Shown: positions 2,277 to 51,215 of the stretch, piece by piece | Layout: each line of letters starts with the position of its first letter | Numbering within the stretch: the first letter of the stretch is position 1 | Source of the DNA: Candidatus Endolissoclinum faulkneri L5 | GTDB taxonomy: Bacteria > Pseudomonadota > Alphaproteobacteria > Thalassobaculales > Thalassobaculaceae | NCBI RefSeq assembly: GCF_000510265.1 | Contig: NZ_CP006745.1 | Location: 615,444-679,443 of the forward strand | DNA: 64,000 nt | Direction of reading: 5' to 3' | Made by a program: the position numbers and the translations under genes | The notes under the pieces: model-generated | What the model saw: the letters and a program-made list of their open reading frames with translations, nothing else | Databases searched by the model: none | What the model was told of the DNA's origin: nothing

Positions 2277-2843
2277 ATGATGCAGCCGCTGATGCCTAAG
2301 GCTACCGCTGTCTGGTTGATTGACAATACTGTACTTACTTTTGAGCAAATTGCCAACTTTTGTGAATTACATAAGCTGGAAGTTCAAGCGATTGCTGATG
2401 GAGAAGTGAGTGTTGGGATTAATGGTTTTGATCCAGTTTTGAATGGTCAACTAACACGCGCGGAAATTGAACGCTGCGAGAAGGATCCAAAGACTAGATT
2501 GACAGTAACTCAGTCTGTGCTGCCTAAGTTTTTTGATCCGATTTACCGACCAAAATATGTACCACGTGCGAAGCGAGGCGATAAGCCGGATGCCATTGCT
2601 TGGCTTTTAAAGCATGTTGAGCATTTAAAGGATGCGCAGATTGCTAAGCTGATTGGGACTACAAAGGATACAATTAATAAAGTGCGTGATCGTACTCATT
2701 GGAATGCAAATAATATTGAAGCTCGTCACCCTGTATTTTTAGGTCTTTGTACCCAGCGTGACCTCGACGCTGCTATTGAGAAAGCTGGGGGAAATAAGGT
2801 ACCGCCTGAACAGCAACTTGCATCTATTAGTGAATTGCCTTAA
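2277..2843 (+). CDS. trcR: Cell cycle transcriptional regulator TrcR (DUF1013 family)
   Basis: A 188-residue soluble protein that I recognise as the DUF1013/COG3820 family, which is nearly confined to Alphaproteobacteria. Caulobacter TrcR, of this family, is reported to bind DNA and to help control cell-cycle transcription. The N-terminal part carries the family segment around LMPKATAVWLIDN (residues 5-17). A predicted helix-turn-helix lies at about residues 118-140, where DAQIAKLIGTTKDTI reads like a DNA-recognition pair. Length matches the family, so the gene looks intact. The start is one of two adjacent ATG codons; AGGGAG sits about 9 nt upstream of the first. The neighbouring tag gene is 925 bp away, so this is probably a single-gene transcript. 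The stop codon lies inside a 34-nt palindrome that may end the transcript. The family call is firm; its regulatory targets cannot be read from the sequence. Confidence 0.93.
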   Translation: MMQPLMPKATAVWLIDNTVLTFEQIANFCELHKLEVQAIADGEVSVGINGFDPVLNGQLTRAEIERCEKDPKTRLTVTQSVLPKFFDPIYRPKYVPRAKRGDKPDAIAWLLKHVEHLKDAQIAKLIGTTKDTINKVRDRTHWNANNIEARHPVFLGLCTQRDLDAAIEKAGGNKVPPEQQLASISELP

Positions 2844-2871
2844 ATTTTATATCAAGATATAAAATTTAAGG
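2838..2871 (+). terminator. Near-perfect palindrome across the trcR stop codon
   Basis: Two 16-nt arms (starting CCTTAAATTTTATATC and ending in its exact reverse complement) flank a 2-nt centre AA. The trcR stop TAA (2841-2843) lies within the left arm. No T-run follows on the plus strand, so it is not a textbook terminator. It could act in 3'-end processing or simply be one of the spacer palindromes. Confidence 0.55.
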
Positions 2872-7586: not shown

Positions 7587-7611
7587 TAGCCTAACTTGAC
7601 AAGTTAGGCTA
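7587..7611. repeat. Palindrome, 12-bp arms with one central base
   Basis: TAGCCTAACTTG (7587-7598), A, CAAGTTAGGCTA (7600-7611). Perfect pairing, 1-nt centre. It lies about 330 bp upstream of petA and could be an operator or a relic. Confidence 0.75.
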
Positions 7612-22588: not shown

Positions 22589-22612
22589 ATGATGATTTAT
22601 ATAAATCATCAT
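22589..22612. repeat. Perfect 24-bp palindrome
   Basis: ATGATGATTTAT (22589-22600) is followed directly by its reverse complement ATAAATCATCAT (22601-22612), with no loop. Confidence 0.75.
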
Positions 22613-28283: not shown

Positions 28284-29277
28284 TATTGTATAAAATTAGC
28301 TTAAGATCGATTATCGCGTGATCGCACTATTTTGAGAAAAAGAAAAACATAATAACTTTATTAATCGTTAATCAAAACTTTGAGGTTTATGTTTTACTAA
28401 AAATAAAAGATAAAGTTTTCCATAATGTGCGAAGATTTAGTTGTTTATTATTTAATTTATTATGCTTTACTGTTAGTAAAATATTCTCATTAATTGAAAT
28501 AAGTTTTACTGAGCTTGTTGTTATTTCCATCCTATTGAGCAAAAATACAATAAAGCCAATACAAATTCACTATTAGGGTTTTGGGAGATATTCTGGTAAA
28601 TAATTAATTTTTCTCACTATTATGCTAAAATAATTTAGCTTTTTTAACTAGTTAATCGTATTGTTAATTTCTTTGAGATTTTCTAAAAGTTAGTCTCCAT
28701 AAATTCGATTATATTCCTTTGGTATAATTAACAGTTCATAAGTTCTATTAGTATAGAAATGTGAAATAATTTGTTTAGGTGGTATCGATTATTATATAGA
28801 ATGAATAAAGTATAGAACTAATTTTGTTGGAGCGGAAAGATTAGCATCTTCTTTGTTACTATAACATAGTATGTTATAGTAAACTGATTGCTTCTAGATA
28901 AAAAAATTATCTATTAATAGTCCTTAATTTTACTTATTTATTTAAAAAGTAAGTTTGTGGTTTTAGCCAAAAAAAAAGATCTCTTAATTTTAAGAATTAT
29001 CGGCAATAGTGATCTTTCCAAGAAGTGCTTATATAATTTACTGATATTTTTACGCAAATGCAAAAATATAGTATAGCTTTACTGGGTTACAAAAGCATAG
29101 TTTGTCTTCTTGGATTAGTGTTGATCTAAATTTAATAATTATGCATTAATACCTGCAATTTAAGTAATAAGCTTAATATATTTTTTGTATACAATAATCA
29201 CATTTTTGCTTTGGTAGAAGTTGATCGAGCAATATAGTAAAATCTTTAATATTATTAATCCGGAGATTTTTTATTCA
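28284..29277. other. Gene-sized gap mltG-gmk
   Basis: 994 bp without a gene. Many alphaproteobacteria have yicC (about 290 codons) between mltG and gmk, so the gap has the right place and size for a fully eroded yicC; no residual similarity is visible to me. It contains a palindrome at 28856-28882 and TAGATAA/TTATCTA near 28895. Confidence 0.5.
28856..28882. repeat. Palindrome, 13-bp arms with one central base
   Basis: TTACTATAACATA (28856-28868), G, TATGTTATAGTAA (28870-28882). Perfect pairing. Confidence 0.75.
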
Positions 29278-47376: not shown

Positions 47377-48912
47377 TTAATACTGCTCCGGTATATAGTT
47401 TTCAGCTGCGTAGTTTGTAAATTTCGTTGTAGAACCATCGAAATTCAATTTCACTACACCAGTTGGGCCATGACGTTGTTTAGAGATGATTATCTCAGCC
47501 CTGCCATGAGCTTTCTTGCAACGTTCTTTCCACTGATCGTAGCGTTCATGAAATTTTTTAGCATCTTCTTCTATTCGCTGAATTGGTTCAGATTTCTGTA
47601 GATAATATTCCTCACGGTAGATAAACATGACTATATCTGCATCTTGCTCAATCGAGCCAGATTCACGTAGATCAGCTAAAATTGGTCTCTTGTCTTCGCG
47701 TTGTTCTACTGCGCGAGATAGCTGTGATATGGCAAGGACTGGTACATCAAGTTCTTTAGCGATTGCCTTCAGCCCCTGAGAAATGGATGAGATTTCTTGC
47801 ACTCGATTATCGATGCGTCCACCTCTGGCCTGAGCAGGACGCATAAGTTGTAAATAATCTACTACTATCAGTGATAAGCCAAGCTGACGCTTTAAACGTC
47901 TAGCGCGAGTGCGCATTGTATGAATAGGAATAGCTGGGGTATCATCGATAAACATCGGCGCTCGTTCTAAATACTCACTTTCTGTTACTAATTTTTGAAA
48001 ATCTTCGTTATTAAGCTGTCCGCGACGCAGTTTGTCTGAAGCTATACCGGTACGTTCAGACAAAATACGTGTGGCAAGCTGTTCAGCCGACATCTCTAGA
48101 GAAAAAAATGCTACAGGTTTTGCTGGTATATCCGGATCATCCATCAAGCTAGTAGAAATGTGAAAAGCTATATTAGAAGCTAGAGTCGATTTACCCATAG
48201 CAGGACGAGCTGCTAGAATTAGCAAATCAGAGGCATGAAGACCGCCAAGCAAATTATCAATATCAATGAAGCCAGTAGAGTATCCAGCAATTCCTCCTTC
48301 TCGTCTATATGCGGCTTCAATTTGTGCAACTGATTCTAATAAAGCCAGTTTTAATTCTTTCATACGGTTTGTGTTTGCACCAGTCTCGGCTAAGGTGAAT
48401 AATTGATTCTCAATATTATCTATTAGTTCGTGCGCAGGAATATCAATATCGCGATCAAAAGCTTCATTAACCATTACTTCACCAATATCAATCAGTTCGC
48501 GTCGCAAGTAACATTCGCGGATCTCGCGTCCGTAGTCTGAAGCGTTAATTACAGTAACGACAGAAGCAGCAAGTTTTACCAAGTATTGAGCACCGCCAAC
48601 CGTAGACAAAGCCTCATCTTGATCAAACATACACTTAAGTGTGATTGGTGTGGCTATTTGTCCTCGATTAATTAATTTAGCACAAGCGTCAAAAATGCGT
48701 CCATGTACCGGATCAGCGAAATGCTCTTTGCTCAAAAATTCGCTGACCTTATCATATGATCGATTATTTACTAGGATTGCTCCAAGCAATGCTTGTTCTG
48801 CTTCTAAATTGTGTGGTGGTTCTCGATAGGATGATCTGTTCTTGGAAGAACTATCTGTAAACAATGGATTAGTATTAGGAAATGAAGAGATACTAGATTC
48901 GTAATTTGACAT
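47377..48912 (-). CDS. dnaB: Replicative DNA helicase
   Basis: Hexameric 5'-3' helicase of the replication fork; it loads and works with primase. The 511-residue protein has the N-terminal DnaB domain (from about residue 32, PHNLEAEQALLGAIL) and the RecA-like motor with Walker A ARPAMGKST (235-243) and Walker B VVDYLQLM. The DnaB signature ISQLSRAVEQREDKRPILADLRESG also follows, read here in two parts. It has a 30-residue Ser/Asn-rich N-terminal tail. No intein. The ribosome binding site before the ATG is weak. Isolated from other replication genes. Confidence 0.97.
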   Translation of the reverse strand: MSNYESSISSFPNTNPLFTDSSSKNRSSYREPPHNLEAEQALLGAILVNNRSYDKVSEFLSKEHFADPVHGRIFDACAKLINRGQIATPITLKCMFDQDEALSTVGGAQYLVKLAASVVTVINASDYGREIRECYLRRELIDIGEVMVNEAFDRDIDIPAHELIDNIENQLFTLAETGANTNRMKELKLALLESVAQIEAAYRREGGIAGYSTGFIDIDNLLGGLHASDLLILAARPAMGKSTLASNIAFHISTSLMDDPDIPAKPVAFFSLEMSAEQLATRILSERTGIASDKLRRGQLNNEDFQKLVTESEYLERAPMFIDDTPAIPIHTMRTRARRLKRQLGLSLIVVDYLQLMRPAQARGGRIDNRVQEISSISQGLKAIAKELDVPVLAISQLSRAVEQREDKRPILADLRESGSIEQDADIVMFIYREEYYLQKSEPIQRIEEDAKKFHERYDQWKERCKKAHGRAEIIISKQRHGPTGVVKLNFDGSTTKFTNYAAENYIPEQY

Positions 48913-49138: not shown

Positions 49139-49188
49139 TGCCTTTTCTTAAAATTGACTGCTTAAGCAGTCAATTTTAAGAAAAGGCA
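49139..49188. repeat. 50-bp perfect palindrome
   Basis: A 23-nt left arm beginning TGCCTTTTCTTAAAATTG, a TTAA centre, and a right arm ending CAATTTTAAGAAAAGGCA that is its exact reverse complement. Every one of the 25 base pairs matches. No T-run follows, and no reading frame crosses it. It could form a long RNA hairpin from either strand or a DNA cruciform. It lies 226 bp upstream of dnaB. Confidence 0.95.
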
Positions 49189-49559: not shown

Positions 49560-49597
49560 CATTATAAATAATTTACTACATTATAAATAATTTACTA
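49560..49597. repeat. Tandem duplication, 19 bp twice
   Basis: CATTATAAATAATTTACTA at 49560-49578 is repeated exactly at 49579-49597. Confidence 0.92.
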
Positions 49598-49793
49598 TTT
49601 ATTTTTATCTACCTTGCGGGGGTATAATCCTCAATTCTTATTAATTACAATAAGCGCAAAATGCAAGATTACTTTATTAAGTTGTCAAAAGATTATTCTG
49701 CGCTTTTATTAATTGACTTTTGAATAACTTAACTATCATTTTCATATGTTACATAAAATTAAGTTTTCACTTTGTTAGGTGGTTTTATACTGC

Positions 49794-49829
49794 ACTTAAG
49801 CTAGAATACAATTGTATTCTAGCTTAAGT
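49794..49829. repeat. 36-bp perfect palindrome
   Basis: ACTTAAGCTAGAATACAA (49794-49811) is followed directly by its exact reverse complement (49812-49829). No loop, no T-run, unrelated in sequence to the 50-bp palindrome 600 bp away. Confidence 0.95.
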
Positions 49830-50159: not shown

Positions 50160-50200
50160 AATCTATCGCATTACATCTATTCAATCTATCGCATTACATC
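50160..50200. repeat. Direct repeat, 18 bp twice
   Basis: AATCTATCGCATTACATC at 50160-50177 and 50183-50200, 5 bases apart. Confidence 0.9.
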
Positions 50201-50360
50201 AATCGCCGGCTATTCATATAATGAATTAAATACAGGAACTATCAAAATTACAAACATCACTCAAATCTTACTTTAAGGTGGATTTAAACCCACATTGAGC
50301 ATTATATTCATTAAATAGTCTCTGCAAAGAGAGCAAATAATTTTTCTATTTTGCATAGCC

Positions 50361-51215
50361 TTATTTACTATCATCTAAATCTCTAGTCTCTAGAGAATCA
50401 ATAATTTGGTAATATAGCTCATTCCATGACTGCTTATCAACGGTGGTGATGATTCCACCACTAAGTTTTGTTGGGCAATAAGCTGTACCGTCTATACATG
50501 CGGAATATCCTCCAGCTTCATGATGAATAAGTAAACCTGGTAGATGATCCCAGGGCATTTTTTTCCAGTAAATTCCATAGTGCCATTGCCCAGTAGCCAT
50601 TTGGATGTAGTCGTAACCTGCGCAACCTTGGCTATAATATCGATCGCACAACACAGCGTTAACTCTTTTGCGTATGTTGAAGCGTAATCTTTCTGGGATA
50701 AAACGAAAGTTAAGCGATCCCTCCATTGCATCAATAGCAACTGCCGATGCTACTTGAAGACGCTCGCGACCGTTATGGTTTAACATCCACGCCCCCTCAT
50801 TTAATCCAGCTATAGCTGTACGCTCTTGAGTAGGTTGATGAATTGCGGATGCAATGGTTTTGCCATGATAGTTTAACGCTACCATTAAACAAAATATGTC
50901 TTTGCCCTCAACGAAATTGTTCGTGCCATCTACTGGATCAACAATCCATACAGGATTATCTTCCTCGATTAACTTTATTAGTGATGGATTATTTTCAATC
51001 GATTCCTCTCCTATTACCAACGAGCCTGGATAGAGCGATGGCAATAATTTGATCAACCTACGTTCAGCAGCTTCGTCAGCTATAGTTACTAGATCACTTG
51101 GTCCTGTTTTTTCGCGAATATCACCTTCCTTTAAATTGCACCATCGAGGCATAATGTCCATCTTTGCTACCTCCGTTAAAATTGTAGCAAGACGGTCAAG
51201 ATCAACAGTCGTCAT
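50361..51215 (-). CDS. Inositol monophosphatase family protein
   Basis: Lithium-sensitive phosphatase of the IMPase/HisN superfamily, Mg-dependent. The 284-residue protein has the metal-binding motifs GEE (69-71) and DPVDGTNNF (93-101), and the C-terminal motif WDHLPGLLIHHEAGG. Members in alphaproteobacteria are annotated as SuhB, histidinol-phosphatase or 3'(2'),5'-bisphosphate nucleotidase; the sequence here does not settle the substrate. AGGGAG lies about 13 nt before the ATG. It is isolated by 1.4 kb and 2 kb of gene-free DNA, so context gives no help. Confidence 0.9.
   Translation of the reverse strand: MTTVDLDRLATILTEVAKMDIMPRWCNLKEGDIREKTGPSDLVTIADEAAERRLIKLLPSLYPGSLVIGEESIENNPSLIKLIEEDNPVWIVDPVDGTNNFVEGKDIFCLMVALNYHGKTIASAIHQPTQERTAIAGLNEGAWMLNHNGRERLQVASAVAIDAMEGSLNFRFIPERLRFNIRKRVNAVLCDRYYSQGCAGYDYIQMATGQWHYGIYWKKMPWDHLPGLLIHHEAGGYSACIDGTAYCPTKLSGGIITTVDKQSWNELYYQIIDSLETRDLDDSK

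Follow-up and report, generated by a model that had tools for sequence, protein, structure and literature searches.

A 50-bp perfect palindrome upstream of dnaB in Candidatus Endolissoclinum faulkneri L5 as a probable product of replication template switching

Introduction

In the spacer upstream of dnaB in Candidatus Endolissoclinum faulkneri L5, 50 consecutive bases form a perfect palindrome, which raises the question of whether the site serves a function in the cell or records a mutation. A sequence-only reading had offered three origins for it: a recently formed template-switch product, a processing hairpin in a suhB-dnaB transcript, or a protein-binding cruciform site. As a rule, template switching has been investigated as a rare event, at one hotspot at a time. 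It is already known from hotspots in E. coli, from yeast and from primates, and it has been put forward as a proposal for nematomorph mitochondria. The organism lives in the sea squirt Lissoclinum patella, and its L5 genome was described as 1.51 Mbp, 55.6% coding, with A+T-rich noncoding DNA (PMC3851785).

The window analysed here is the whole stretch of 64,000 nucleotides around the site, and coordinates without a further label refer to it. The sister genome used for comparison was Candidatus Endolissoclinum faulkneri L2 (NC_019566.1; 1,481,191 bp); the L5 genome comprises 1,518,636 bp in one contig.

Results

The palindrome and its spacer

The features of the spacer and its neighbouring genes are as follows.

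47377..48912, minus strand: dnaB, replicative helicase, downstream neighbour (NCBIfam NF006606, 672 bits)
49139..49163, plus strand: left arm, TGCCTTTTCTTAAAATTGACTGCTT, the probable inherited template, at least in its outer 17 bp (14/17 ungapped against L2)
49164..49188, plus strand: right arm, AAGCAGTCAATTTTAAGAAAAGGCA, putatively newly written as the reverse complement of the left arm (outer 17 bp 7/17 against L2)
49794..49829, no strand: second perfect palindrome in the same spacer (36 bp, 18-bp arms, loop 0)
50361..51215, minus strand: inositol-monophosphatase superfamily gene, called suhB in the sequence-only reading, upstream neighbour (best family HisN, 105 bits, under cut-off)

A recount of the base pairs bore out the earlier description of the site at 49139-49188: the arms are 25 bp long, all 25/25 positions are paired and the loop length is 0. 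The flanking bases (C and T) are unpaired. When folded as DNA, the site reached -25 kcal/mol (z = -10.1), a stability that was equalled in 0/200 shuffles, and it was by a wide margin the strongest short-spaced inverted repeat in the window. With a pairing probability of ∼0.28 per pair at the local composition, arithmetic gives an expectation of ∼1e-9 for a 25-bp arm in 64 kb. The earlier statement that chance cannot account for the palindrome agrees with the shuffles, in which 0.0 hairpins with arms of at least 16 bp were expected in 419 kb.

The palindrome is located 227 bp upstream of the dnaB start, in a spacer of 1.45 kb between two minus-strand genes, the upstream one of which (50361-51215) scores below the cut-offs of its best families. 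This position and the very stable fold would suit a functional hairpin or operator, acting either as a stem for RNA processing or termination or as a cruciform or dimer-binding site controlling dnaB. The surroundings of the site offered little to such a role. It was correctly observed before that there is no T-tract and no gene over the palindrome; a Rho-independent terminator is not indicated, given the lack of a T run and the 1172 bp that separate the site from the stop of the upstream gene. The scan for terminator-like patterns made no call at 49139, promoter-like matches in the dnaB spacer showed no excess over shuffles, and an Rfam scan across the whole window gave no match. The core of the palindrome had no second copy in the L5 genome with up to 3 mismatches allowed, and a plasmid search with the site returned no match.

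The second palindrome, 605 bp away, was absent from the earlier description, and its L2 counterpart gave no clear alignment. It is followed by a weak T-rich stretch and was called by the scan for terminator-like patterns.

Comparison with the sister strain

The L2 spacer could be aligned on either side of the palindrome, and the orthologous L2 site is non-palindromic. From the left, an ungapped alignment of 36 bases between L5 and L2 reaches the inner left arm. Over the outer 17 bp, the left arm matches L2 at 14/17 and the right arm at 7/17, a modest difference within a gapped spacer alignment (Fisher p = 0.03), and the 12 bp just beyond the right arm match at 10/12. The simplest reading of this alignment is that the right arm was probably rewritten from the left arm in the L5 lineage. 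The centre of the palindrome may have its origin in the other arm or a separate history, and more than one event is therefore possible.

Where L5 has the 50 nt of the palindrome, L2 has 46 nt, and the sequence was therefore overwritten and not inserted. This bears on the alternative of an inverted duplication, in which a second arm would have been added without existing sequence being overwritten. Some noncoding orthologous gaps do differ greatly in length between the strains, as a duplication would produce; the lengths at 49139, however, and the equal lengths of the cleanest coding cases (below) point to replacement, which makes a duplication very improbable.

The earlier suggestion to look for the same palindrome elsewhere in the genome and in a sister strain thus yielded a single copy in L5 and a non-palindromic orthologue in L2. 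According to the sequence-only reading, the latter outcome would mean misassembly, a rule that fails because a lineage-specific mutation predicts the identical outcome. The comparison also weighs on the functional readings. A regulatory site would be expected to be conserved, and the palindrome is missing from an L2 spacer that is otherwise alignable.

Census of hairpins in L5 and L2

Perfect hairpins were counted in samples of 419 kb (L5) and 420 kb (L2), comprising evenly spaced 20-kb stretches together with the region of the palindrome, or ∼28% of each genome. The sampled stretches of both strains carry the labels L012-L051, and coordinates given with a label count within that stretch. At a minimum arm length of 16 bp and a maximum loop of 10 nt, 30 hairpins were found in L5 and 30 in L2 against 0.0 in shuffles, which extrapolates from these samples to ∼105-110 per genome. 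When the minimum arm was lowered to 12 bp under the same loop limit, the count was 69 per strain sample against 1.3-1.5 in shuffles. The longest arm in the census was 36 bp. The palindrome at 49139 is ordinary within its own genome; it is the genome itself that is unusual. The window alone holds further hairpins of like kind, as listed below.

2838..2871, no strand: perfect hairpin, 16-bp arms, 2-nt loop
36725..36756, no strand: perfect hairpin, 15-bp arms, 2-nt loop
62060..62090, no strand: perfect hairpin, 15-bp arms, 1-nt loop
1146-1182, 28856-28882, 7587-7611 and 22589-22612: further perfect short-loop hairpins, arms within 12-16 bp

The density of hairpins with arms of at least 14 bp was ∼18/100 kb in noncoding and ∼2/100 kb in coding DNA, alike in both strains. 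Although loops of up to 200 nt were allowed, most were shorter than 15 nt, with a strong preference for 0-15 nt, and zero-loop hairpins formed the commonest class (17/85). A T-tract was found beside just 4/37 and 2/39 of the noncoding hairpins in the two strains, which argues further against a terminator role. An all-against-all comparison of the 85 hairpins with arms of at least 14 bp returned only short A+T-rich partial matches. With no family of similar sites, and with the palindrome absent from L2, neither the processing hairpin nor the protein-binding cruciform found support, and a function in the control of dnaB or its transcript appears very unlikely. The same comparison addresses the possibility that the palindrome belongs to a dispersed family of palindromic repeats, of the kind of the Rickettsia palindromic elements or REP/MITE-like repeats. 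The abundance of similarly sized hairpins in the genome speaks for such a family, which should include several related copies; the partial matches among the 85 hairpins and the single copy of the 49139 site leave this explanation with next to no credibility.

For most palindromes, the orthologous place in the other strain lacks equal pairing. Imperfect hairpins were also abundant: for 20-bp arms with 0, 1, 2 and 3 mismatches, the counts were 18, 8, 13 and 18 in L5 and 12, 6, 12 and 25 in L2, compared with at most 1 in shuffles. This graded series suggests that palindromes are born perfect and then decay steadily, and the class with 0 mismatches, about twice that with 1 mismatch, may reflect repeated re-conversion. 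Each arm is matched by the sister strain at ∼70-75% regardless, a level at which counts of kept stem pairs cannot reveal any seeds that may have preceded an event.

A small number of hairpins with 12-bp arms (L019 6683-6710 and L028 10282-10310) are identical in L5 and L2 and are possibly real structured elements and not products of mutation. Direct repeats of at least 16 bp at short offsets were likewise frequent in L5 and L2 (76 at offsets between 16 and 39 nt; examples in the window at 49563-49600 and 50172-50203), and slippage is a possible source of them, as the lineage has no mismatch repair.

Hairpins inside genes

Coding DNA allows the two arms to be compared with the sister strain in alignments free of gaps. 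In murD (L026 13761-13794), the right arm is identical to the sister (16/16), and the left arm agrees with it at 11/16; the two arms of a hairpin in a gcvP-like gene (L032 7826-7863) match at 16/16 and 13/16, and those of a third coding case (L041 9681-9713) at 15/15 and 12/15. In all three, one arm only is altered and the lengths equal those of the sister. Other gap-free coding cases are altered in both arms, for example L012 2698-2732.

At a different murD hairpin (L026 13621-13660), the right arm codes for Leu, whereas the corresponding residue of the motif is Pro, Ala or Ser in the sister and in ten relatives; the right arm was therefore probably overwritten with a copy of the left. The two perfect murD hairpins are separate and 100 bp apart, and a third hairpin of the same stretch (L026 10000-10028) lies in a nearby murE-like gene. 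A perfect hairpin of 43 bp with 21-bp arms (L030 16694-16736) was located in a linker-like stretch of a polyketide synthase reading frame of 4448 aa.

Control genomes and assembly

Genomes of the same class, small A+T-rich ones included, contained at most isolated hairpins, several of which were G+C-rich terminator-like stems. Given that the control genomes have little noncoding DNA, coding DNA was compared on its own: for arms of 14 bp or more, there were 10 hairpins in the E. faulkneri reading frames (462 kb) and 0 in the control coding DNA (973 kb). The amount of junk DNA alone is therefore not the source of the excess. Relaxed selection in the symbiont may be a contributor.

An assembly or sequencing artefact, which would make the palindrome a chimeric hairpin, has to be considered at this point. 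Palindromic DNA is difficult to sequence, the L5 and L2 assemblies both derive from metagenomes, and L5 was built from short reads with gaps closed by PCR (PMC3851785). A misassembly is nevertheless highly unlikely, because the density is equal in two separately assembled genomes, the palindromes in coding DNA preserve frame and length relative to the sister within conserved genes, and decayed copies form a graded series of 1-5 mismatches that is predicted by ageing and not by artefacts. The control genomes showed no comparable accumulation, although many of them are split into numerous contigs.

Repair genes

In E. coli, hairpins are cleaved by SbcCD, and template switching is aborted by exonucleases I and VII. 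We searched both E. faulkneri strains for the corresponding repair genes. No recA was found in L5 or L2. Also absent from both was mutS, of which L2 retains a relic of 47 residues with stops. The exonuclease VII gene xseA, present in 146/153 genomes of the class, is absent from both strains. No match to sbcC or sbcD was obtained in either strain, an absence that is less telling as the models are weak in this class. In contrast to these losses, recJ, polA and addA are retained in both strains. Loss of recA and mutSLH had been reported (PMC3851785).

Two single causes were rejected. The loss of xseA as the sole cause is opposed by four control genomes (G020, G105, G119 and G059) that are also without a match and show no hairpin excess, although they have little noncoding DNA. 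The loss of a RecBCD equivalent is opposed by the intact addA. Template switching in E. coli was raised in recB, lexA3 and dnaB mutants, with no rise in recA alone (PMC6357072), and the same paper cites work titled to the effect that exonuclease I aborts template switching. The repair losses of E. faulkneri would be expected to raise the rate of template switching.

Discussion

Template switching as the probable origin of the palindrome

Template switching leaves a perfect or near-perfect, short-spaced inverted repeat beyond chance, as found at 49139 and genome-wide, and the orthologous site in a relative that escaped the event is not palindromic, as found in L2. With the left arm apparently kept and the right arm apparently not, and with many unrelated sites in both strains, the first of the three earlier proposals, a recently formed template-switch product, gained support. 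We conclude that the palindrome at 49139 is very probably a neutral change specific to its lineage, produced by template switching during replication, and we observed no evidence for a function.

While the spacer was being copied, the nascent 3' end would leave its template at a pre-existing short inverted repeat. It would then copy the already replicated left arm, or the complementary strand, for ∼20-25 nt and return, so that the old right arm would be replaced by the reverse complement of the left. Both the template-switch step and its left-to-right direction are probable deductions. The zero-loop class would be poorly predicted by a simple fold-back on a loop of 3-4 nt; it would fit better with a switch to the opposite strand or with palindromic seeds. 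Such events would be frequent in the symbiont lineage, being poorly removed or poorly selected against, and the rewritten stretch would have been fixed by drift in a small, recombination-less population. Perfect hairpins would thus arise genome-wide and decay by point mutation while others take their place.

Relation to known systems

A general excess of short inverted repeats is ascribed to a mutational process; the repeats of E. faulkneri are far longer and occur in a lineage without several repair genes. A close likeness is to the quasi-palindrome mutations scored with the E. coli lacZ reporters QP5 and QP6, in which an imperfect repeat with a short spacer becomes perfect through arm copying with one-sided changes (PMC6357072, PMC7202029). 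Those are rare and were scored at engineered or single hotspots, whereas E. faulkneri carries more than 100 products per genome by extrapolation, with arms of up to 36 bp at unrelated sites. The coding palindromes of Nematomorpha mitochondria, for which conversion or template switching was proposed, resemble ours in that many perfect inverted repeats, also in genes, are gained and lost between relatives (PMC6649704). They are mitochondrial, up to 284 bp long, coding and all-or-none; ours are chromosomal, mainly noncoding and shorter, with mismatched intermediates. In template-switch RNA hairpins, a single switch likewise creates a perfect stem with one old and one new arm (Monttinen and Loytynoja 2022, PMC8794818); those belong to RNA genes under selection, unlike the E. 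faulkneri stems, which are without visible selection.

In the available literature, we found no report of template switching at such a scale in a bacterial chromosome, and the text of PMC3851785 contains neither "palindrome" nor "inverted repeat". The genome-wide prominence of template switching in E. faulkneri therefore seems unreported.

Implications

We lean, with some reserve, towards a broader reading, namely that template switching acts as a major mutational force in this bacterial lineage. More than 100 perfect palindromes per genome would be continuously born and lost, rewriting spacers as well as essential and biosynthetic genes, because RecA, MutS, ExoVII and SbcCD have been lost. 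The L5/L2 pair offers a way to ask which repair losses release template switching, and the two sister genomes provide a natural record of its footprint in terms of arm length, loop length, direction and effect on proteins. For very long perfect palindromes in degraded genomes, a regulatory site should not be the default reading.
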